DNA of 51,339 bases, taken from Pirellulales bacterium (GTDB lineage: Bacteria; Planctomycetota; Planctomycetia; Pirellulales; Thermoguttaceae). A program made the translations under genes and the position numbers. Positions within the stretch are counted from its first letter, which is position 1. Each line of letters begins with the position of its first letter. The DNA lies in assembly GCA_016935315.1 (NCBI GenBank), contig JAFGRD010000109.1, forward strand, positions 1 to 51,339. The letters run 5' to 3'. Shown here one piece after another: positions 25,091 through 50,463 of the stretch. The notes under the pieces were generated by a model that did no database searches, was not told the DNA's origin, and saw only the letters and a program-made list of their open reading frames with translations.

Positions 25091-26593
25091 ATGCTTTCCT
25101 CCCGGCGACTGCCCACGACGCTCTGGCTGATCCTGCTGGTCGCGCTGGCGCTGCGCTTGCTGGGGGCATGGCATGCGAATCTGACCTTCGACGAGCGGGC
25201 CCGGGTGGCCCTGGCCGAAACGATTGATCTGCGGCCCGGCCACCTTCACCTCGTTTCCCGAACCGTCGCCCATCCGCCGATGAGCATCTACCTGATGAAG
25301 CTTAGCGGCCTGGCGTTCGGCACCGGCGACCTCGGGCTGCGGATGCTGCACGTGGTGGCCGGCACGCTGACCGTGCTGCTGGTCTTCTTCCTGGGACGGC
25401 GGGTCTTTTCGGAGCGGGCCGGCCTTTGGGCGGCGGCGCTGCTGGCCGTCGACCAGTTCCACGCCGGCTGGTCGCGGGTGGTGCTGACCGAGGTGCTGAT
25501 GCTGCTGTTTGCATCCCTGGTCCTGCTGCAATTCCTGCGCGTGCTGGAAAGCGGCACGACTCGGCGGTTCGCGGTGCTCGGACTGCTGCTGGGGCTGGCC
25601 TATCTGGCCAAGGAAGTGGCGATCCTGCTGCTGCCGGTCCTTTGGATCTACCTGCTGATCACGCCCCGGCACCGTCGCGTCCTGCGCCGGCCGACGTGGT
25701 ACCTGGCCCAGGGCGTGTTCCTGGCGGCCGTTGCCCCCGACGTGATCTGGAACCTCGTCCAGGGGATGGAAAGCTACCTGTACCGCGATCTGATGTTCGC
25801 TTCCGAGCCGTTTCACATTTCGCTGAAGTCGCTGAGCCTGTACGTCGGCGAGCTGTTTCGGGCGTGGTTCGGCGATCCGGCCCTGGACGTCGAATACGAG
25901 CAGGGCAGCCTCTATACGTGCTACTGGCCGGCGGGGGTGCTGTACCTGGGGGCCGTAACGACCGCCGTCGTCCGCCGCAAGGACCCGGCCGTGAGACTGC
26001 TGCTGGTGATGTTTACCGTGATCTTCGGAGCGTTTTTCCTGCTGCCCGGCGGCGATCGGTTCGAGCCGTTCTGGTGGGCGTCGATGAGCCTGATTCCGGC
26101 GGTCGTGTGTGCGGGCTGGGCGTTGGATTGGGCCGCCCGCAGCGGTAGAATGCCCGCCCTGGCCGCGCTGCTGCTGATCGGATTGCTGGGTGCTCACTAC
26201 GTGCCGGTGGCGCTTCGTTCCGGGGAAGCGCAACCGCGGGCGACAGTCCGGCAGTTTGTCGACGATTTCCTCCGCCGCGCCGACGCCGCCCTGCGGCGGG
26301 GCAATTTGCGCGAGGCCGAAAGCCGCTACGTTTTCATGTTGAATCTGGGCGGCCCGAATGCCGAGGCATTCTATGGGCTGGCCACCGTGGCCGCGATGCG
26401 GGGACAAACCGAGAAGGCCGAGCTGTTGCTGCAGAAATGTCTGGAGCTGGACCCGGATCACGAAGCCGCGTCGGAGCGACTTCGGCAACTCAGAGCCCGT
26501 CCGAAAGGCCCCGACTCCCGGCCCCTCTCGCCGCAAGCGGGGCCGTCGGAGAACGTTCCAACCCAACAGACACAGCGGGAACCCACGCTTTGA
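25091..26593 (+). CDS. GT39/ArnT-type membrane glycosyltransferase with C-terminal TPR
   Basis: 500 aa. GT-C fold enzyme that would transfer a sugar from a polyprenyl-phosphate donor. The first periplasmic loop has the acidic motif NLTFDERARVALAE followed by VAHPPMSIYLMKLSG, the catalytic Asp-Glu and HPP signature of the family. About 10-11 hydrophobic segments follow up to residue 390. The last about 100 residues are soluble, with a tetratricopeptide-like pair (AEAFYGLATVAAMRGQTEKA, then LLLQKCLELDPDHEAA). ATG at 25091 begins right at the first helix. The stop overlaps the next gene (TTGA). Confidence 0.85.
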   Translation: MLSSRRLPTTLWLILLVALALRLLGAWHANLTFDERARVALAETIDLRPGHLHLVSRTVAHPPMSIYLMKLSGLAFGTGDLGLRMLHVVAGTLTVLLVFFLGRRVFSERAGLWAAALLAVDQFHAGWSRVVLTEVLMLLFASLVLLQFLRVLESGTTRRFAVLGLLLGLAYLAKEVAILLLPVLWIYLLITPRHRRVLRRPTWYLAQGVFLAAVAPDVIWNLVQGMESYLYRDLMFASEPFHISLKSLSLYVGELFRAWFGDPALDVEYEQGSLYTCYWPAGVLYLGAVTTAVVRRKDPAVRLLLVMFTVIFGAFFLLPGGDRFEPFWWASMSLIPAVVCAGWALDWAARSGRMPALAALLLIGLLGAHYVPVALRSGEAQPRATVRQFVDDFLRRADAALRRGNLREAESRYVFMLNLGGPNAEAFYGLATVAAMRGQTEKAELLLQKCLELDPDHEAASERLRQLRARPKGPDSRPLSPQAGPSENVPTQQTQREPTL

Positions 26594-28689
26594 CATACGA
26601 ACCGGCGACAACGCGAAGCGACCGCCCGCTGCTTTCGGCGGCAGCGTTCCTGTCAATGGTGATGGCGCCGCTCGGCGTCTACTCGCTGGCCGCGCTGGCC
26701 GCAGCCGCAACCGACGCCACGGCCCCGGCCCGGGTGGCCTGCTTCGATCCGGCCAACCTGGACACCATGTCGGCCGGCCGCAAGGCCGCTTCGCTGGCCA
26801 TGGCGCTGTCGGCCGTGGTCTTTCTGTTCGTCGTTCCCGGCCTGCTGGGCACGCTGGCCTTCACGCGGCGGGCCGGCACCCGGCGCAACGCCCATCTCTG
26901 GAGCCTGGCGGTCAATTCAGCGGCGCTGATCGTGGTTTGTCTGCTGTTGCGCCACACGACCGGGGTCCAGCGCGGCCCGCTGGCGGTCGCGTGGCTGGCG
27001 TGGACCGTCGTGCTGTTCGCCTTCGGCTGGCAACCCCGGCGGTCGCCCGTGCTGCTGGGCCGCTGGCGGAGGCGCTACGGCGGCGGCCTGCTGGTCGGGC
27101 TGCTGGCCGCGGCGGCCGCCGGCTGGGCCATGTTTCCCGAGCAGTTCGTGCAGTGCTTCGCCGAAGACGGCACCGAGACCTACGAGCTGGCTCGAAGTCT
27201 GCGGGAACACTTTCTTCCCTATTGGGAATTGGAGACGTGGACCCCGGAAGGGGGCAACCGGCTGGGGACCGTGGTGGTCAACCCTTCGCTGATCAACTCC
27301 TATTGGACGTGCGGTCTGCAAACGCTGTTAGGCAGCGGCGAGCATAGCGGGGGCGAATTGGGTACGCGGTTACCCTATTGGGTCTGGTGGTTGGCCGTGT
27401 TTGCCGTGGCGCTGCGGCTGGTGCGTCCGTCGAGGCGAGGTGGAAGCTGGACCAACGGCCTGATACTCGCTCTGCTGATGATTCTGGTGAGTGTGCTGTT
27501 CAGTTTCTACGTTGGCTACAACCCGTACATGGCCGACCTGGCCAACCCCGGCGTGCCCGATGCCCTGTTTACGCTCTGTGTGCTGCTGGCCTTCGATTGT
27601 CTTCGGCGACGGGATCACTGGGCGTTTGTCGTCTCCATGCTGCTGGCTTCGCTGGTGCTCTACGCCGGCCCGGTCATGCTGGCGGCCGTTCTGGCGGCGG
27701 CCTGGGTCTGGCGGCCGATCGAACGCAGGGAGGTGCTTCGGTGGGGCGTGCGGACGGTGGAACTGTTGCTGGCGATTGCGCTGGGCTATCTGGCCTGGGG
27801 CTGGTGGGAGGGATCGCTGGAAGTCTGGGCCCACACGGCCGACGTCGAATACGTTGCCGATTACCTCTCACCCTTTCCACGCTGGAAATCGGCCCCCTTG
27901 TTCTTCGGCTATTTCCTGCTGCTTTGCGGCGGGGTCCCGGCTCTGGGCCTGATCTGGACGTTTCGGCGCGGGCGGTGGGAGCGGACCGTGGCCACCGCCG
28001 GTTTGCTCTATCTGGCGATCGTGCTGCTCTCGGGGTTCAAGAACATCCATTACCTCGGGCCGCTGTTGCCGATTCCCGTGGTGCTGCTGCTGGCGGAGTT
28101 GGAGCGAAGGAATCGGGCCGTCCCGCGACGAGAGAAGAAAACGCCCGGCTCGCCGGACTCGTGGGCTTGCTGGGGCTCTTTGGGCCCTGTGAAGACGTTG
28201 GCGGCCTGCTCCCTGATCGTTTGCATCGTCCTCTGTTGGCCCAAGGCACGATCCACGTTCACACTCACTCGCGAGTTGGGCGCGCGGACCACCATCACCA
28301 CCGACTCGTATCTGACGGCCGCGCGGTGGGCTCGGCTGCGGCTGGTGCTGATCGAGCAGGGTTTGGTCTCCTGGTACTACGACGCCCACACTTGGGCCGC
28401 CTATGCCCAGCGCGAGGCGGCGCCGGCGGCACTGCGGCCGCTGGTGCTGACCGACGGGGGAACGCCGGCGCCGGGCTACCGGCCGGTGGCGTCCCGGCCC
28501 GTCGAGGGAACGCAGCAGGTGGCCAGGCTCTACGCCCGGGACGAAGCCGCCGAAACGTGGCTGCGCACGCGGCCCACCTTGCGGCCCGTGGATCGCTACC
28601 CGGCGATCATGAGACCGCTGGCCAAGGGGCCCTTCTCGCCGCACGAGAACCTGCTCAGCGATCTCGAACTGCTGCGATGGCCGTGGTGA
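26590..28689 (+). CDS. Large polytopic membrane protein, probable GT-C glycosyltransferase
   Basis: 699 aa, TTG start at 26590 overlapping the previous TGA stop, which implies translational coupling. More than ten hydrophobic segments. After the third to fourth helix comes the acidic loop CFAEDGTETYELARSLREH, comparable to the catalytic loop of GT-C enzymes, followed by NPSLINSYWTCG. A soluble C-terminal region (about residues 560-699) contains ITTDSYLTAARWARLRLVL. No named family is recognised. By partner (the GT39-TPR protein) and topology it is likely a lipid-linked sugar transferase or related O-glycosylation component. A longer start inside the upstream gene is in frame but less likely. 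Confidence 0.65.
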   Translation: MTYEPATTRSDRPLLSAAAFLSMVMAPLGVYSLAALAAAATDATAPARVACFDPANLDTMSAGRKAASLAMALSAVVFLFVVPGLLGTLAFTRRAGTRRNAHLWSLAVNSAALIVVCLLLRHTTGVQRGPLAVAWLAWTVVLFAFGWQPRRSPVLLGRWRRRYGGGLLVGLLAAAAAGWAMFPEQFVQCFAEDGTETYELARSLREHFLPYWELETWTPEGGNRLGTVVVNPSLINSYWTCGLQTLLGSGEHSGGELGTRLPYWVWWLAVFAVALRLVRPSRRGGSWTNGLILALLMILVSVLFSFYVGYNPYMADLANPGVPDALFTLCVLLAFDCLRRRDHWAFVVSMLLASLVLYAGPVMLAAVLAAAWVWRPIERREVLRWGVRTVELLLAIALGYLAWGWWEGSLEVWAHTADVEYVADYLSPFPRWKSAPLFFGYFLLLCGGVPALGLIWTFRRGRWERTVATAGLLYLAIVLLSGFKNIHYLGPLLPIPVVLLLAELERRNRAVPRREKKTPGSPDSWACWGSLGPVKTLAACSLIVCIVLCWPKARSTFTLTRELGARTTITTDSYLTAARWARLRLVLIEQGLVSWYYDAHTWAAYAQREAAPAALRPLVLTDGGTPAPGYRPVASRPVEGTQQVARLYARDEAAETWLRTRPTLRPVDRYPAIMRPLAKGPFSPHENLLSDLELLRWPW

Positions 28690-28732
28690 CGTCGTGTTTT
28701 CAAAGAGTGCGGTCAAGGCCCGAAAACGTGCT

Positions 28733-30565
28733 TCACCACTGCGGCGTGACGGAGAAGCTCGCGAAATCCCGGACCAGGCCCCAGATGGCGTCGAGGTTCC
28801 AGAGCGTCAATCCCAGCATCAGCACGCATACCAGTCGCAGGCGAATCGGGCTGGTCGCCGCCCAGCAAGCCGGCGCCACAAACAGCGACAAAAACAGCGG
28901 GCCCAGGTGCTTCGTCTCGCGCCAATCCACCAGCGTAAACGCCACGGCGGTCAACAGGGTCCAAGCGACCCACAGCCCGGGCGAAAAGACGGGCCGATCG
29001 GCATCTCGCGAGCCATGTCCTTCGTCTGTTACGGGTCGCGCACCGCGCAGCCAAAGGGCCGCCAGAGTCATGATCCCCAGCGGCAACAGTGCGTAGCCGG
29101 TGTGCTGCCAGAATTCGATCCAGAGCCCCGCGCGGCTCGGGTAGTTGCCGAACTCGAAAGGGCTGTAGTGGATCAGGCGATCAAGGAAGTGAATCCGCAC
29201 GTGCATCTGCCAGAAGTCGGCCGGCGCCACGCTCAGGCCCCAGGCCCAGAACACAGCTAATCCGGCGGCAAAGCCGACCACCGCCGGGTGCAACAGCGCC
29301 TTGGCCGCGCGGCGCGAGATGGTGCCCTCGGTCCAGTCAAGCAGCCGCCAGAGGACCAAGGCCGCCGGCAGCAGGACCAGCTTCTGATTGACCAGCCCCA
29401 GAAACACGGCCGAGGCAGAACAGGCCGCCCACCAAGATCGGCGCGACTCGGAAGGCCGCTGCTCGACGGCCGTCAGCAGCATCCAGGCCGCGAAGTTTGA
29501 GCCGGCGAAATAGCCGCCATAGCTGGAGCGGACGAAGACCTCCGGACTGGTGGCATAGGCCAGCGGGACGACGATCGCCAGTGGCCACTTCCCGGCCCTC
29601 CGCCCGATCCAGCATCCCAGCCACGCCACCGTCCATGCGGCCAGAAAGACGTTCGTCGCGCGCGCCGGAAGCCTTTGCGGATCGCGCTCGTAGTGCTGAA
29701 CCATCACCGCGTTTTCCAATCGCCAAATCTCGATCCGCCGGCTGCCGTCGTTCAGCGGAGGCTCCACGAGATAGTCGGGTCCGTCCCTGCCGACGACCCG
29801 ATGGTTCTCCACCGTCCCCTTGGCCAAGCCTCCCACCGTGCCGCCAAACGGCGCGAAGTCGATTCCGTTCCGGGCGGCCAACGCCCGGCGCGACGCCTCA
29901 TCGTAGTAGGCCAGCGATTCGAACTGGTCGAAGTAGAGGAAGGAGCCGGCGATGCAGAACTCCATCAAGGGAGGATGGGCGAAGTGGTAGTAGGTCTGAA
30001 GGTGGCTCACGTGCAGCGGCTCGCCCCGGGTGAGCAAGCCGTAGCTGCATGGGAAAACGTGGAAATCCTGGTCTTCCAGCAGCGGCACGACCCGGGTGGC
30101 GCCATGGAAGTACAACACATGAGCGGCCAGGAACAGCACAGCGCCGAGCCACGCAAACGGGTCGCTCCAGTCAAGACCCCACGTGGGGACGCGACGCACG
30201 ACGGTGTGCAGCAGAACGCCCGCGTCGGTCAGCGCCCAGGTGATGTTCCAGACCGTGCTGCCGCAAAGCGACCAGCCCGTCACGTGGACCAGGAGCAGCG
30301 CCCCGAGCATCACCGCCAGCGAGGCCGCTACGGCCCAGATCGGCCGAAATCGGTCGAGCCGGTGGCAGCCGATCATCACGCCCACCCAGGCAATCCCCGG
30401 CACCAGCAGGATCACCGAGCCGACCGCCAAGGCCCGAAGCCACGGGCAAACCAGTAGCGGCCACCCGGGATGGCAGACCAGGAAGGGAAGATTCAACGCC
30501 AGCACCCAAGCGACGTAAGCCGGCAGATGGTGTCGGGTGGTCGTCGTGTCGCGGTGTTCGAGCAT
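28733..30565 (-). CDS. Polytopic membrane protein, GT-C-like
   Basis: 610 aa from ATG at 30565. About 11-13 membrane segments starting at AYVAWVLALNLPFLV. A periplasmic loop holds VVPLLEDQDFHVFPCSYG and, further on, YYHFAHPPLMEFCIAGSFLYF; the acid pair plus HPP is the GT39-like signature. A soluble insertion of about 110 residues (DEASRRALAARNGIDFAP ... MVQHYERDPQRLP) follows. It is convergent with the pair at 25091-28689 (43 bp between stops) and downstream of the DUF2723 gene. The upstream in-frame extension crosses an R2 repeat and is rejected. Donor and acceptor unknown. Confidence 0.7.
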   Translation of the reverse strand: MLEHRDTTTTRHHLPAYVAWVLALNLPFLVCHPGWPLLVCPWLRALAVGSVILLVPGIAWVGVMIGCHRLDRFRPIWAVAASLAVMLGALLLVHVTGWSLCGSTVWNITWALTDAGVLLHTVVRRVPTWGLDWSDPFAWLGAVLFLAAHVLYFHGATRVVPLLEDQDFHVFPCSYGLLTRGEPLHVSHLQTYYHFAHPPLMEFCIAGSFLYFDQFESLAYYDEASRRALAARNGIDFAPFGGTVGGLAKGTVENHRVVGRDGPDYLVEPPLNDGSRRIEIWRLENAVMVQHYERDPQRLPARATNVFLAAWTVAWLGCWIGRRAGKWPLAIVVPLAYATSPEVFVRSSYGGYFAGSNFAAWMLLTAVEQRPSESRRSWWAACSASAVFLGLVNQKLVLLPAALVLWRLLDWTEGTISRRAAKALLHPAVVGFAAGLAVFWAWGLSVAPADFWQMHVRIHFLDRLIHYSPFEFGNYPSRAGLWIEFWQHTGYALLPLGIMTLAALWLRGARPVTDEGHGSRDADRPVFSPGLWVAWTLLTAVAFTLVDWRETKHLGPLFLSLFVAPACWAATSPIRLRLVCVLMLGLTLWNLDAIWGLVRDFASFSVTPQW

Positions 30566-30600
30566 GGAACGGGAAACGGCTTTGGTGCGTCGGTTCAGTT

Positions 30601-30680
30601 GTAGCTGGATCCGCAAAAACTCAGCTAGCTGCGAGACTGAAAGGTCCCAAATCTGAAATCCGGTCTCAGTCCTCACTCAA
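30601..30680. repeat. R2 element, copy b
   Basis: Starts GTAGCTGGATCCGCAAAAAC with TCAGCTAG after it; the other end, on the opposite strand, has GGATTTCAGATTTGGGAC, shared with copies a and e. It fills the gap between the two co-directional minus-strand genes and overlaps the last codons of the DUF2723 gene. Ends are approximate. Confidence 0.55.
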
Positions 30681-32328
30681 TCGGCTTGCCAACTCGGTAG
30701 AGTCTCTCGAGACCTTCGTGAGCCGGCTCGAATTCGTACAGCTCGGCGATTCTTCGAACGATGTGCGTGAAGTAGATCGGCCGCTCGGGCGTGGTCTGCT
30801 TGATGTGCCGCACGAACTGCACGGCCGAATCGGCAAGCTCGGGGTGGTTGAAGCCGTCGACATAGTCGATGTAGAACTCCATGCCCGTGCGGCCCTGTTC
30901 GACAAGGGCCACGTAGTAGTAGGGATAGAGATGACACCAGCCCGTGAAGACAACGGCGTCGTCCTCCAACTTGCCGAGCAACTCGCGGACGTCGCGGTGA
31001 TACCCCGTGGAGTATTCGACGCCCACGCTGTCCAGCTCCTCGGGCGGCACCCAATAGGCCCGTCGGTGCTCCCGATCCCAGGCGGCGGCAAACAGCATCG
31101 GCCAGACGACTACCGCCACCGCGGCGATCGCGCAGGCTCCATCGCAAGCAGCGGCCGACCAGCGCCGTTTGCCCCGGCCGGCCGCCAGCCGGCGACACCC
31201 GTCGCTGGCCCAGGCGAGTCCCACCGTGCCGAACACGGCGAAAAGCACGTACGTCGAGATGTACATCACGTGGACGATGCCGTCGAATTGCAGGTCGTAA
31301 ACCAGATGGGCAAGGTACGTCAGCGTCAGCAACAGCGACATCTTCGCGTTCTGCCGCAGCAGCCGCCAGACTCCGGCGACGGCCGCCGCCAACCACAGCG
31401 GCGGAAACTCGCGAGGCAGGTTCTCCAGGTACTGCTGCGCTTTCTCCGCCGTCCGCTTCAGCGGCTGGGACGTGAGCTTGCCCTGAAATTGCGGGGCCGT
31501 GATGCTCAGCCAAACCCGCTCCAGGAAGTCGTCCGTATCGTCCAACTCGAGGTTCCACTCGGAGCGAGAAGGATTGATGACCGTGCGGAAGTAGCTGCAC
31601 GGGCTGTCGGCCCGATCGATCACGTAGAAAGCGGCCAGTGTGATCGCCGCGCCCGTGGCCGCTCCGGCAACCGCCGCGGCCAGGTTGGCCTTCCACCGCC
31701 GCCTGTGCAGCAGCACGAACAGCACGGCCGCCGGGGCCATGAAGGCGACGGTCGTGTGGATTCCCAGGCTGACGCCCCCGACGCACGCCCCGGCGAACAG
31801 CCAGCGGAGCCTTCCGGTCTGTTGCCAAAGGGCCAGCCCCAGCAGGACCAGCACGGTGCAGGCAGCGGCCGTCGTGTAGACTTCGGCGATGATGGCCTGG
31901 GACCAGAAAGTCGGCGAAAAGGCCAACGCCAGCCCGCCGGCGATCGGGATCCACCTCCGGCCGGTCAGCACCGTGCCCAGCGGCACGACCAGCGCGGCCG
32001 CCACCGCCCCCATGAGGGCCGAGAGCAGGTTCACTCGATAGGGCACGTCGCCGACGGGAATCGCCGTGGCCGCCTTGGCCACCAGCAGGTACACTGGATA
32101 GCCGGTCGGATGGGCATAGCCGAGCGTGACCGCCAACGTTTGCAGTTCGCCCATATCCGCTCGCAACAGCCCCGGCGCCAGCAGCGGCACGTACGCCACC
32201 AGTGCCACCAGGCCGACTCCCAGAGCCGTCCACCCGTCGCGGGCTAGCAGCAGAGTCGGCTGCGATGCCGGCGGCTGTTCGGGCGCAATCGACGGCGGAT
32301 CGTTGGGGATTTGACCGGTGTCCGACAC
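30673..32328 (-). CDS. DUF2723/TMEM260-like membrane protein O-mannosyltransferase
   Basis: 551 aa. The DUF2723 signature is in the first loop: LLRADMGELQTLAVTLGYAH then PTGYPVYLLVAKA. The eukaryotic relative TMEM260 is a protein O-mannosyltransferase, so a lipid-linked hexose transfer to protein is plausible. About ten hydrophobic segments extend to residue 420 (AIAAVAVVVWPMLFAAAWD); the last 130 residues are soluble and face the periplasm. Proline-rich short N-terminus (NDPPSIAPEQPPASQP). Divergent from the radical SAM gene, 155 bp away; downstream lies the GT-C-like gene at 28733-30565. Confidence 0.85.
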   Translation of the reverse strand: MSDTGQIPNDPPSIAPEQPPASQPTLLLARDGWTALGVGLVALVAYVPLLAPGLLRADMGELQTLAVTLGYAHPTGYPVYLLVAKAATAIPVGDVPYRVNLLSALMGAVAAALVVPLGTVLTGRRWIPIAGGLALAFSPTFWSQAIIAEVYTTAAACTVLVLLGLALWQQTGRLRWLFAGACVGGVSLGIHTTVAFMAPAAVLFVLLHRRRWKANLAAAVAGAATGAAITLAAFYVIDRADSPCSYFRTVINPSRSEWNLELDDTDDFLERVWLSITAPQFQGKLTSQPLKRTAEKAQQYLENLPREFPPLWLAAAVAGVWRLLRQNAKMSLLLTLTYLAHLVYDLQFDGIVHVMYISTYVLFAVFGTVGLAWASDGCRRLAAGRGKRRWSAAACDGACAIAAVAVVVWPMLFAAAWDREHRRAYWVPPEELDSVGVEYSTGYHRDVRELLGKLEDDAVVFTGWCHLYPYYYVALVEQGRTGMEFYIDYVDGFNHPELADSAVQFVRHIKQTTPERPIYFTHIVRRIAELYEFEPAHEGLERLYRVGKPIE

Positions 32329-32483: not shown

Positions 32484-33827
32484 ATGCAAATCGCGCTGAT
32501 CAAGCCGTGCTGGCAGTACCCCATTGCGGGGGCCGACCATACGTACAACCGGCGCTGGCCCCCGCTGGAGTTGCTCAACTGTGCGGCCCTGCTGGAGGCC
32601 GACGACCATCAGGTGCAGATCGTCGATGCCCAGGCCGAAGGCCTCTCGCCCGACAAGGTGGCGGCTCGCGTGGGCGCCGCCGAGCTGGCCCTGGTGACCA
32701 GCTCCGCGCTGGACCGCTGGCAATGTCCTAGCTTCGAACTGGCCCCGGTCACCGCGGTGATGAACCTGTTGCGCGGCCGCGTGAGGCAACTGCTGCTGAC
32801 GGGTTTTCACGGAACCGTCCAGCCTGCGGCGATGCTCGAAATGACCGGCGTCGATGCGGTCGTGCGCGGCGAGCCCGAAACGACGATCCGCGAAGTGGCC
32901 GCCGGCAAGGCGTGGCAGGAAACCGCCGGGCTGACGTTCCTCGACCAAGGCCGCCTGGTTTCCACGCCCGACCGGCCGCCGCTGGACTTGACCACCTTGC
33001 CCGTGCCCGCCCTCCACCTGATCGACCCGAAACACTACCAGTACGAAATCCTCGGGAGGCGATTCATGGTGCTCGAGGGCGCTCGCGGGTGTCCCTGTCC
33101 GTGCACCTTCTGTTCGCGGACGATGCTCGGCAGGAGGCTACGCCGCAAGACGATCGAGCAGTTGGGTCACGAGGTCGAGGTGGCCGTAGGGCAGTTCGGG
33201 GTCCGCAACCTCTATTTCATCGATCTGGAGTTCACGGCCTCGAAGGAGCTGGCCGAGGGGGTCTGCCGACACATCCTGAACCGCAAGATCTCCATCCGCT
33301 GGTGCTGCCAGACGCGGACCGATCAGATCGACGAGCCGTTGCTGAAGCTGATGCGGCAGGCAGGCTGCCATTTGATTCATTTCGGCGTGGAGGCCGGCAG
33401 CCCGCGGATTGCCGAACTCTGCCGCAAGCGCATCACGCCCAAGCAGCAGGTTCGCGGCGTCGAGATGGCCCGGCGGGCGGGAATCGAGACGCTCTGTTTC
33501 TTTCTGCTGGGTCATCCCGGCGAAACGGACGAGGAAATGCAGCAGACCATCTGCCTGGCCAAGCAACTGAATCCGACCTACGCCTCGTTCCACCGCGTTT
33601 CGCCCTACCATGGCACGCTGCTGTATGACGAGTACGCCAGCGACTCGGACGAGTTGTTTCCCTCCTATGCCGGCTCGCGGCAGCAGCGCGAAAAGGTCGA
33701 TCGGCTCGTCCGCCGGGCAATCTGGTCGTACTACGTCCGCCCGCGGTACGTCTTGTCGCGAATCTTCCGCAGCTCGCCGATTTCCCTCTGGCGGCAACTA
33801 AGGTTGTTTGCCGGGTACTTCCGCTGA
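32484..33827 (+). CDS. B12-binding-domain radical SAM protein
   Basis: 447 aa. Residues 1-140 form a cobalamin-binding-like domain (NRRWPPLELLNCAALLEADD, VRGEPETTIREVAAGK). The radical SAM centre is at about residue 200: GARGCPCPCTFCSR, giving C-x3-C-x2-C for the [4Fe-4S] cluster, with one extra Cys inside. The barrel follows (LYFIDLEFT, HLIHFGVEAGSPRIAELCRK, LCFFLLGHPGETDEEM). Such enzymes perform methylations or ring and C-C chemistry in cofactor, lipid or natural-product pathways; substrate unknown. The amidotransferase-like remnant starts 12 nt after the stop. ATG at 32484 was chosen because the conserved domain starts there. Confidence 0.88.
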   Translation: MQIALIKPCWQYPIAGADHTYNRRWPPLELLNCAALLEADDHQVQIVDAQAEGLSPDKVAARVGAAELALVTSSALDRWQCPSFELAPVTAVMNLLRGRVRQLLLTGFHGTVQPAAMLEMTGVDAVVRGEPETTIREVAAGKAWQETAGLTFLDQGRLVSTPDRPPLDLTTLPVPALHLIDPKHYQYEILGRRFMVLEGARGCPCPCTFCSRTMLGRRLRRKTIEQLGHEVEVAVGQFGVRNLYFIDLEFTASKELAEGVCRHILNRKISIRWCCQTRTDQIDEPLLKLMRQAGCHLIHFGVEAGSPRIAELCRKRITPKQQVRGVEMARRAGIETLCFFLLGHPGETDEEMQQTICLAKQLNPTYASFHRVSPYHGTLLYDEYASDSDELFPSYAGSRQQREKVDRLVRRAIWSYYVRPRYVLSRIFRSSPISLWRQLRLFAGYFR

Positions 33828-33839
33828 GGGTCTGCCCGT

Positions 33840-34298
33840 ATGTGTCGGTTTGTCTTGTACATGGGACCGTCGATCACGCTGGACCTGCTGACGACGAGCC
33901 CCACCTACTCGATCATCCACCAGAGCTACAAGGCCCGGATGCGCGTCGAGCCGCTCAACGGCGACGGGTTCGGCCTGGCCTGGTACGTTCCCGACGTCTC
34001 GCCCGAGCCGGCCGTCTTTCGGTCGATCCAGCCTGCCTGGAACAACCTCAATCTACGGCACGTGGCGCGGGTCACGCGAAGTTCGGCCGTGCTGGCCCAT
34101 GTGCGGGCGGCGACGCCCGGCACGGGTGTCTCCGAAGCAAACTGCCACCCTTTCTCCAACGGACGCCCGGTTTCGCGATGCCTCAGCTTCCAGTCAACCG
34201 GCGGCACCTCGCTCACCGCCGGTCCAGCCGGTGCAAGCCCTCTTCCGCGGCGATCGCCAACGCCTCTTGATACTCGGCACGGGCCAGGGGGCGGTTGA
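33840..34298 (+). pseudogene. Truncated class II glutamine amidotransferase (EgtC/YafJ-like)
   Basis: The first about 110 residues are a normal class II amidotransferase start: MCRF with nucleophile Cys2, GPSITLDLLTTSPTYSIIHQ, RVEPLNGDGFGLAWYV, RSSAVLAHVRAATPG and NCHPFS. Family members are about 250-280 aa. Here similarity stops at about 34160 and the frame then runs antisense over the 3' end of the neighbouring radical SAM gene to 34298, without the expected segment beginning HNG. The gene has lost its second half, so the protein is probably inactive. It follows the radical SAM gene by 12 nt, and the two probably formed an operon. Confidence 0.75.
34197..34223. terminator. Hairpin between convergent genes
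   Basis: An 8-bp perfect stem, ACCGGCGG with CCGCCGGT, and an 11-nt loop that contains the stop codon region of the minus-strand radical SAM gene. It could end transcription from that strand; no T-run. Confidence 0.4.
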
Positions 34299-35154
34299 TC
34301 CGGGCGTGGCGATGGGCGTAGCCGCCGGGGCGATACTGCGGCATCACGTTGACAAACGTGTCGGGCGAGATCTCTCGGGCGAGAAAACGCAGGATTTGAC
34401 GCGTGTCTTCCAGACCATCCGGCAGCACCAGATGGCGCACCAACAAGCCCCGGCGGGCGAGGCCCCGATCGTCGATCACCAGATCGCCCACCTGCCGGTG
34501 CATCTCCCGGATCGCGCGGTACGCCACCTCGCAATAGTCCTCCGCGTGGGCCAGCTCCTCGGAAACCTTCGGGTCCCAGAACTTCAGATCGGGCATATAG
34601 ATGTCGACCACGCCGTCCAACAGCCACAGCGCCGCCAGGCTATCGTATCCGCCCGTGTTGTAGACGATCGGCAGCCGCAGCCCGCCCTCGGCCGCCGGGA
34701 GCAACCCTTCGAGAATCTGCGGCACCACGTGCGACGGCGTGACCCAGTTGATGTTGTGGCAGCCTTGCCGTTGAAGCGCCAGCATCATGTCGGCAAGCTG
34801 CTGCGGGCTCACCTCGCGGCCGTGTCCCTCCAGGCTGATGTCGAAGTTCTGGCAGAAGTCGCACCGCAAGTTGCAGTGCGTGAAGAAGATCGTCCCTGAG
34901 CCGCACCAGCCCCGCAGACAGCTTTCCTCGCCATGGTGCGGGCCGGCGCTGCTGACCCGGGCGCGCCGGGCCGTGCGGCAAAACGACGCGGGGCGTTGCT
35001 CGTGCAAGCGATCGACGTGGCACTGCCGCCCGCACAAGACACAATTGGCCAGCGACTCGACGGCCCGACGCACACGGCGAGTCCACTCGCCTCTTTCGAG
35101 CAAACCTCGATAGGCCGGATCGTCGCGCGGCGGATACACCGGAGTCTCCCGCAT
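34213..35154 (-). CDS. PflA-like radical SAM protein (COG1313 type)
   Basis: 313 aa. The cluster motif C-x3-C-x2-C is in FFTHCNLRCDFCQNFDIS (about residue 94). Before it, a Cys-rich segment (LANCVLCGRQCHVDRL) may bind another metal. Further motifs are INWVTPSHVVPQILEGLL and VYNTGGYDSLAALWLLDG and DIYMPDLKFWDP, characteristic of the uncharacterised PflX/COG1313 group, annotated as pyruvate formate-lyase-activating-like. No glycyl radical enzyme is adjacent, so the target is unknown. It converges on the amidotransferase remnant and overlaps its 3' tail. Confidence 0.87.
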   Translation of the reverse strand: MRETPVYPPRDDPAYRGLLERGEWTRRVRRAVESLANCVLCGRQCHVDRLHEQRPASFCRTARRARVSSAGPHHGEESCLRGWCGSGTIFFTHCNLRCDFCQNFDISLEGHGREVSPQQLADMMLALQRQGCHNINWVTPSHVVPQILEGLLPAAEGGLRLPIVYNTGGYDSLAALWLLDGVVDIYMPDLKFWDPKVSEELAHAEDYCEVAYRAIREMHRQVGDLVIDDRGLARRGLLVRHLVLPDGLEDTRQILRFLAREISPDTFVNVMPQYRPGGYAHRHARINRPLARAEYQEALAIAAEEGLHRLDRR

Positions 35155-49126: not shown

Positions 49127-50266
49127 CTACGCCTGCTTCCGGCGGCGGAACCACCAGCCCCAGATGCCGCAGACGGCCGCGGCGAGGGCCATCGCGCTCG
49201 TGCTCGGCTCCGGAATCACGGCCCTCCAGGCCTCCGACCGGCCGTCGGGGTTGCCACCCGTTCCGACCAGCACGGTACCGTCGGCCGAGATACCCGTGGC
49301 CATGCCCAGCGTCCAGCCTTCCAGGTCGAGCCCGTAGTCATCGGTGAGTACGTCCTGCACTCGGCGCATCCCATGTTCGGCATCCCAAAGGAACGCCGCA
49401 CTGCCCGATTCCGTCTCACCCTTGCCCACGACGATCGAGCCATCGGCCGACACATCGTAAGCGGTGCTGCCGTAGGCTCCACCGGGGAAATCGCCCAGCC
49501 CGATCATCCCTAGGCCGATGGACCAGCGAAAGGCCTCATGGCCCTCGGTCGAGCCGGACCCTCCTACCATCACGGAGCCGTCCGCGGACAGAGCGAACGG
49601 TTGGGCGTGGTTGGTCCCGCCGGGGAGGTCACCCAGGTCGACCAGACCTTCGGCGGCCGTCCAGCGAAACGCCATGTAACCGGCCGACGTCGAGCTCTGT
49701 CCGGCCACCACGCGGCCGTCTGCCGAGACGGCTTCGGCCAAGGAGTAGTGGGCTCCACCGGGCAAGTCCCCCAGCGCGACCATGCCTCCGGCGACCGTCC
49801 AGCGGAACGCCCGCCAGCCGCCCGGCGACTCGGTAATGCCGGCCACAACCGAGCCGTCGGCAGAGACGCCGTGACCTCTGCTGTGACCGAAGTCTCCAGA
49901 CAAGGCACCCAAACCGATCATGCCTTCGGCCTCGGTCCAGCGAAACGCCTCGTCGCGATTCTCCGACCGGCTGTATCCCACAACGGTCGAACCATCGGCC
50001 GATGCGGACGAAGCCGAGCTGGTGAACCAGCCGCCGGACAAGTCGCCCAGGCCGATCATACCGTCGGCCTCGGTCCAACGAAACGCCTCCTGGCCGTTCT
50101 CCGAACTGGAATACCCGACGACGACGGAGCCGTCGGCAGAGACATCCCACGCCGCGCTGAGATCACTGAACCCGGGCAGATCGCCCAATCCTTCAAACGT
50201 GGCGCCCAAGGCCGACGCGGCGCACATCAACGACAACGCGAACGGGCAACATGCTCTGAAGCGCAT
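49127..50266 (-). CDS. PEP-CTERM protein with HAF repeats
   Basis: 379 aa from ATG at 50266. Signal peptide (FRACCPFALSLMCAASALGA), then six repeats plus a partial one of about 48 residues, each with SADGSVVVGYS-type, EAFRWTEADGM-type and IGLGDLSGG-type blocks: the HAF repeat. The end is an exosortase sorting tail: PEP in VIPEPSTSAMALAAAV, a hydrophobic helix and RRRKQA. Such proteins are exported and processed by an exosortase, none of which is in the window. Surface or matrix role likely. Lone gene between minus-strand neighbours. Confidence 0.93.
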   Translation of the reverse strand: MRFRACCPFALSLMCAASALGATFEGLGDLPGFSDLSAAWDVSADGSVVVGYSSSENGQEAFRWTEADGMIGLGDLSGGWFTSSASSASADGSTVVGYSRSENRDEAFRWTEAEGMIGLGALSGDFGHSRGHGVSADGSVVAGITESPGGWRAFRWTVAGGMVALGDLPGGAHYSLAEAVSADGRVVAGQSSTSAGYMAFRWTAAEGLVDLGDLPGGTNHAQPFALSADGSVMVGGSGSTEGHEAFRWSIGLGMIGLGDFPGGAYGSTAYDVSADGSIVVGKGETESGSAAFLWDAEHGMRRVQDVLTDDYGLDLEGWTLGMATGISADGTVLVGTGGNPDGRSEAWRAVIPEPSTSAMALAAAVCGIWGWWFRRRKQA

Positions 50267-50463
50267 CGGGTGTCTCCTGTTGATTTGGCCCCGACTGGCG
50301 GCTGTCCTGGTGCGATCCCACAATCAGTCCGATTGTATCAAGCCGTGCCATCGGTTTCCATTGTCCGGCATCCGATTCGGCTCCCTCTGGCGAACGGGGC
50401 GCAGAGAGCCTCAGCCGGCTGCCTGGAGATTTACCGCTCGGACCTGCCGTGCGCCCGCAGTCG

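Follow-up and report, generated by a model that had tools for sequence, protein, structure and literature searches.

A 51,339-nucleotide stretch of a Pirellulales bacterium (contig JAFGRD010000109.1 of assembly GCA_016935315.1; the whole stretch is called the window here) encodes four adjacent large membrane proteins, which we call A, B, C and D. The question that this locus raises is whether all four are GT-C-type glycosyltransferases and whether they work together. A preliminary description had read them as two convergent pairs of such enzymes, forming a protein or lipid O-glycosylation island on the periplasmic face. We found that A and D, judged by their domain matches, are new members of known families, and that each of B and C seems to stand for a new and rare GT-C family, a placement still short of proof. 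We consider it moderately probable that A–D are inner-membrane GT-C_A glycosyltransferases that use polyprenyl-phosphate sugars on the outer side of the membrane to build a surface glycan, glycolipid or glycosylated protein. The four open reading frames were present in the described arrangement when their coordinates, strands and overlaps were checked:

25091-26593, + strand: A, a PMT_2/GT39-like GT-C glycosyltransferase with C-terminal tetratricopeptide repeats (TPRs), 500 amino acids
26590-28689, + strand: B, GT-C-like, of unrecognised family, 699 amino acids, TTG start
28690-28732, no strand: gap of 43 bp between the reading-frame ends of convergent B and C
28733-30676, − strand: C, GT-C-like, of unrecognised family, 647 amino acids, GTG start
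30673-32328, − strand: D, a TMEM260-like (PF11028) GT-C protein with a C-terminal soluble part, 551 amino acids, GTG start

A and B overlap by 4 bp, as do D and C, and the A–B pair converges on the D–C pair so that the ends of B and C face each other across the gap. The terminator scan listed no terminator-like site between B and C, and the promoter and terminator scans of the locus gave results not above those of shuffles. All four are large multi-helix proteins, as had been proposed; a 19-residue hydropathy scan counted 9 helices in A, 14 in B, 12 in C and 7 in D.

Family placement of A and D

Protein A matched the Pfam family PMT_2 (PF13231) over residues 61-220 with an E value of 7e-29 (101.5 bits, gathering cut-off 26.1). 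It has in common with PMT_2/GT39-like proteins the match over the whole domain, the DE loop and the HPP motif, and differs from them by its C-terminal repeats:

26270-26461, + strand: TPR region of A, residues 394-457 (Pfam TPR)

Compared by description only, the TMTC proteins (GT105) have the same architecture, a GT-C core followed by TPRs. An orthologue of A with 61% identity was present in another genome of the same taxonomic family (G010), and A-like matches with an E value of 0.001 or better were found in 83 of the 119 genomes of that family, the window's own included. Protein D matched PF11028 with an E value of 9.8e-26 (91.0 bits, gathering cut-off 24.2). The TMEM260 family, to which PF11028 corresponds, is classified as GT117 (PMC11292533). 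In the search of solved structures residues 28-209 of D aligned with the human TMEM260 structure 9rql (E 5.6e-16), with HPTGYP of D placed on HPPGYP of the human protein and D-M-G-E on D-S-G-E. The D..E loop and the HP[PT]GYP motif are thus common to D and the TMEM260-like protein O-mannosyltransferases; D differs from human TMEM260 in being bacterial and in having a C-terminal part that lies outside the alignment.

These placements bear on a strict protein O-glycosylation reading, in which A (GT-C core plus TPRs, TMTC-like) and D would attach an initial sugar to exported proteins and B and C would lengthen it. In make-up A and D do resemble two families of protein O-mannosyltransferases, in which selection of the protein substrate is ascribed to the TPRs (PMC11292533), human TMEM260 is the best solved relative of D, and the S-layer of an anammox planctomycete is reported to be heavily O-glycosylated (PMC5088730). 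However, the scanned neighbouring genes included no obvious target protein, teichoic acids and cell wall polysaccharides are further substrates of enzymes with a PMT_2 domain (PMC8035078), and the relatives of B and C at a second locus of the same genome (contig C78, described below) adjoin an exopolysaccharide-like gene cluster, recognised by eye, into which that contig runs on. We therefore give this narrower reading a minor, if appreciable, chance of being right, and prefer to leave the acceptor of A–D broader than protein.

Acidic loops and the fold of B and C

The preliminary description had reported an acidic loop motif in each of the four proteins, followed in three of them by HPP or HPT. 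Both observations were borne out: the loop motif was found in A, B, C and D, and A, C and D carry HPP, HPP and HPT, respectively, where B has NPS.

25190-25195, + strand: acidic motif D34-E35 of A in the first outer loop, read from the sequence; one helix precedes it
25271-25279, + strand: HPP motif of A, residues 61-63, read from the sequence
27163-27177, + strand: acidic motif E192-D193-G-T-E196 of B, aligning with D34-E35 of A
29969-29977, − strand: HPP motif of C, residues 234-236; HP invariant in 5/5 family members
30065-30073, − strand: acidic motif D202-x-D204 of C, invariant in 5/5 family members
32104-32112, − strand: HPT motif of D, residues 73-75; HPP in human TMEM260
32146-32157, − strand: acidic motif D58-M-G-E61 of D, aligned with D-S-G-E of human TMEM260

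A search pattern of D/E followed by HP[PT], which misses D's own D..E form, was matched by two further genes, A and C aside, when 34 genes of the window were examined. Of 2000 shuffles of each protein it matched 33 for A, 35 for B, 79 for C and 69 for D. Since the pattern recurs in this way, the motif by itself would be weak evidence. The conservation of its residues across the families of B and C lifts it above chance. In the alignment of the C family D202, D204, H234 and P235 were invariant, and in the B family the position of D193 was aspartate in all five members that cover the region and that of E196 was glutamate in four of the five (a sixth member is a fragment without this region).

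As had also been noted, two of the four proteins belong to no recognised family. B had no Pfam match and a best NCBIfam E value of 0.037, C had a best Pfam E value of 0.11 and no NCBIfam match, and for the relatives of both there was likewise no Pfam family that names the core. When solved structures were searched at E values up to 10, the profile of B (three sequences) gave only a chance-level match to an unrelated enzyme (E 0.48) and the profile of C gave no match. The fold of B and C was addressed by profile–profile comparison with hhalign. The full B profile matched pooled PMT_2 sets with probabilities of 59-85%. Against a pool of 17 PMT_2-type proteins the probability was 68.9% (E 4.5e-5), and it was 78.3% when A's own family was removed. 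Several members of this pool had been recruited by similarity to A without an individual Pfam scan, and it held two weak C matches (from G041 and G179) and one protein without a Pfam scan; dropping these three unverified proteins lowered the value for B to 59.2% and that for C against PMT_2 from 18.8% to 6.3%. The B–PMT_2 alignment placed E-D-G-T-E on the D-E of PMT_2 and NPS on HPP. The C profile matched a set of five TMEM260-like proteins at 86.9% (E 4.2e-6), and at 80.8% when D and its orthologue were removed.

Controls were run by the same procedure. Reversed sets, which are matched in depth, gave 0.2-0.4% for B, 0.1% for C against the reversed TMEM260-like set and at most 4.3% for C overall. 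Eight unrelated membrane families, at 1-2 sequences each shallower than the pooled set, scored no higher than 0.6% with B and C and no higher than 1.2% with the PMT_2 and TMEM260 sets, and known GT-C relatives reached 84-98%. In the hydropathy scan five helices precede the acidic loop in B and four in C, as compared with one each in A and D. C has a long stretch between its HPP motif and the next helix, and the N-terminal stretches of B and C can be aligned to one another, at only 10-15%.

Several results pull the other way. The profile scores are moderate, and when one member of the B family was dropped at a time, the match to the pooled PMT_2 set ranged from 18.8% to 73.9%. Single PMT_2 sets gave B 0.1-0.4%, with 1.1% for A's family and 44.0% for one set of four, and an earlier comparison with fewer B members reached at best 6.4%, which was no link. 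The corresponding range for C against the TMEM260-like set was 44.2-90.9%; against D and its orthologue alone C scored 7.7% and against the cleaned PMT_2 set the 6.3% given above. The C–TMEM260 link spans helices beyond the long stretch of C and not the acidic motif itself, and neither B nor C was linked to a YfhO-like set (0.5% and 0.4%). The AlphaFold models were unusable, with a predicted local distance difference test score of 42.1 for B (single sequence) and 35.5 for C (two sequences). Because of the profile scores, their controls, the register of the motifs in B and the extra helices, we nevertheless regard B and C as probable GT-C proteins that carry about four additional helices at the N-terminus, and the GT-C fold of both as having fair support. 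The proposal that all four are of GT-C type is thus probable, for A and D through their family placement and for B and C by controlled comparison.

The same data could be explained if only A and D were catalytic and B and C were GT-C-derived, non-catalytic partners that bind the acceptor or carrier for them. The 4-bp overlaps couple B to A and C to D, B has NPS in place of HPP, C has its long stretch before the next helix, and both resemble the known GT-C families only weakly; one review raises the possibility that acceptor binding by the smaller GT-C enzymes depends on a second protein (PMC8035078). Against such a role, the acidic loop residues are kept in both families, and homologues of C occur with no D-like gene beside them: in the window's genome PF11028 was matched only on contigs C154 and C74 and not on C78, the D match of G010 is on another contig than its C relative, and no D-like gene was seen by eye near the C relative of genome G320. 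We consider non-catalytic partners unlikely and continue with B and C as probable glycosyltransferases.

Rarity, relatives and recurring neighbours

B and C were each matched in 3 of the 119 family genomes, the window's own included, and G010 was the only other firm carrier of both. A contig scan with the C alignment returned 53 pattern matches, one of them a relative, taken as G010:C879. Among 392 genomes of the phylum B was found in seven, with four strong matches (G000, G173, G424 and G316), and C in six, with three strong matches (G000, G173 and G320), where strong means above 50 bits. The weak matches excluded were G086 (E 4.6e-4, short and lost with the profile), G241, G437 and G446 for B, and G041, G149, G176 and G179 for C. 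The two genes tend to occur in the same genomes. With strong matches in the phylum, three genomes had B, two had C and one had both, of 391 (p 0.015), and in the family it was one genome, the same for B and C, of 118 (p 0.008). These counts are very small and the 50-bit cut was the analyst's choice, and both facts reduce the weight that the co-occurrence can bear.

The window's genome has a second locus, on contig C78, with a relative of B (49%) and a relative of C (47%). There the C relative is the C-terminal part of a 1539-amino-acid protein (L012 11871-16490) whose N-terminal part is YfhO-like, and the C relative of G010 is fused likewise in a protein of 1603 amino acids (L013 5390-10201). 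The YfhO-like label is a sub-threshold one (Pfam scores of 24.0, 20.9 and 16.6 bits, gathering cut-off 28.5). Both fusions are probably two GT-C-type proteins in one chain. The B relative of G173 bears C-terminal TPRs. On C78 a methyltransferase gene and a sulfatase-superfamily gene that overlap by 4 bp (L012 8156-11763) lie between the B relative and the C relative, and beside the locus is a dockerin protein whose PEP-CTERM match is sub-threshold (L012 17711-18997). The window itself encodes a PEP-CTERM protein at 49127-50323, and an exosortase system in this genome is likely, as far as these sequences indicate.

We then asked if the four genes form a conserved unit, as the word island in the preliminary description implied. 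They do not. Out of the 119 genomes searched, G010 was the one other with firm matches to all four, and there A, the B-like gene, the C-like gene and D are on four different contigs (the assembly is fragmented into 1460). The gene downstream of A in G010 is a histidine kinase and not B. A and B were adjacent at two of six B loci, in opposite order, and one of the six loci ends at a contig edge. Gene calls in the relatives came from a simple script based on open reading frames and third-position GC content and not from a gene finder, and the methyltransferase, FkbM, histidine kinase and exopolysaccharide labels in them were assigned by eye. Since the four genes are split in G010 and the A–B adjacency recurs at so few loci, the four-gene island is local and a looser association is older. 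In a GT-C-rich genome such an arrangement might also be two unrelated pairs that came to lie end to end by accident. PMT_2 is matched nine times in this genome, A and D included, A-like genes are as widespread in the family as given above, and the dispersal in G010 fits as well. On the other side, the very rare B and C are close together at both loci of this genome (C154 and C78), and homologues of A, B and the radical SAM gene described below occur together in the distant G173. Accidental neighbourhood is, in our estimate, rather unlikely, and we prefer the older, looser association.

This recurring association is wider than the four genes and includes glycosyltransferase family 2 (GT2), radical SAM, methyltransferase and YfhO-like neighbours. 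In C78, G320, G173 and G010 a homologue of B, C or A has a GT2 gene no more than 5 kb away. The GT2 proteins that were scanned resemble dolichyl- and undecaprenyl-phosphate sugar transferases, with scores far under the family cut-offs. The locus in the window departs from this pattern: none of the seven genes between 20425 and 33827 was recognised by Pfam as a GT2, which counts against the pathway proposed below. G173 is a distant member of the phylum whose assembly measures 2.0 Mb; there the B relative belongs to a same-strand row of six genes in the order GT2, B12 radical SAM, methyltransferase, B-like, A-like PMT_2 and YfhO-like. The A-like gene overlaps the B relative by 4 bp, and further A-like genes are present on the same contig. 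The C fusions of C78 and G010 contain a part homologous to this YfhO-like protein, and that part is absent from the window's C. In G320 the C relative is near an FkbM-type methyltransferase, a GT2 and a PMT_2 protein, and it adjoins an epimerase/GMC-oxidoreductase pair, homologues of which are 5-8 kb from the B relative of G424. The B relative of G316 adjoins a methyltransferase and a radical SAM gene. In G010 a GT2 gene precedes the A orthologue and is 71% identical to the GT2 of C78 that stands beside a radical SAM gene. At the G424 locus, vitamin K-dependent gamma-carboxylase-like genes, the first with HTTM and lumenal domains, lie beside the B relative (L070 9612-12145), with transposase-like genes (by eye) near them.

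In the window the radical SAM gene is the neighbour of D:

32484-33827, + strand: B12-binding radical SAM protein, divergent from D (PF04055, E 1.2e-24; PF02310, E 2.4e-9)

Its product is 43% identical over 455 amino acids to the radical SAM protein near the B/A-like pair of G173, and no homologue at an E value of 1e-60 or better was found in the other 118 family genomes. Its best NCBIfam scores were 162.1 bits for BchE and 161.3 bits for HpnJ, so that HpnJ/BchE-like B12 radical SAM proteins are the best-scoring group, far under their cut-offs (481 and 578 bits). Radical SAM genes were present within 10 kb of B or C at at least six of nine loci as compared with 1.14 expected from the number of such genes per genome (p 1.4e-4); this count was chosen after the association had been seen, two pairs of the nine loci share a genome and are not independent, and some loci end at contig edges. 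The gene at 32484-33827 is possibly part of the same pathway as A–D. Downstream of it, a reading frame of 152 amino acids at 33840-34298 resembles the start of a class-II glutamine amidotransferase (GATase_4) and may be truncated; it overlaps the end of a radical SAM gene on the opposite strand (34213-35154).

A candidate envelope pathway

In published systems the polyprenyl-phosphate sugar is made by a GT-A enzyme and turned by a flippase, and on the outside a GT-C protein with an acidic loop transfers the sugar (PMC8035078). Wall polymers are the targets of PMT_2 and YfhO proteins in Gram-positive bacteria (PMC8035078), and TPR-bearing TMTC proteins and TMEM260 act on mammalian proteins (PMC11292533). 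The loci related to ours share with the multi-component CsbB/GtcA/YfhO glycosylation systems a GT2 by a GT-C protein, a YfhO-like partner and the acidic loop. They differ in that the window itself has no GT2 gene in the span given above, and a radical SAM neighbour is unmentioned in the available text of PMC8035078. Because GT2 neighbours recur and the loop motifs are present, a periplasmic role with polyprenyl-phosphate sugars is the best reading of A–D.

Under that reading we infer the donor, the direction of transfer, the acceptor, the radical SAM step and the action of all four proteins on one product as follows. A cytoplasmic GT2, for which contig C78 encodes candidates, would load single sugars on polyprenyl phosphate, and a flippase would turn the loaded carriers outward. 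A–D would bind the carrier with the acidic residues in their first outer loop, and every one of them would add a residue or start a chain. The TPRs of A and the soluble tail of D might help to select the acceptor. B and C would be new GT-C families that tend to act in one pathway, and the B12-dependent radical SAM enzyme (here 32484-33827) could modify a sugar or the lipid, a role that is a guess. A bolder version, which we hold to be doubtful, is that B and C found two GT-C_A families sharing a four-helix N-terminal extension and, with A-like and YfhO-like proteins, GT2s and HpnJ/BchE-like radical SAM enzymes, make an undescribed envelope glycan or glycolipid whose lipid-linked sugar or carrier is remodelled by the radical SAM enzyme.

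GT-C enzymes may show little mutual sequence similarity (PMC8035078). Much of the outer cell surface is their product, and two rare families traceably linked to PMT_2 and TMEM260 would, if true, widen the GT-C map. The recurring company of radical SAM genes and GT2 genes of the lipid-phosphate type gives a concrete pathway to look for. Human TMEM260 is reported to be a heart-disease gene, and bacterial relatives such as D may aid its study.

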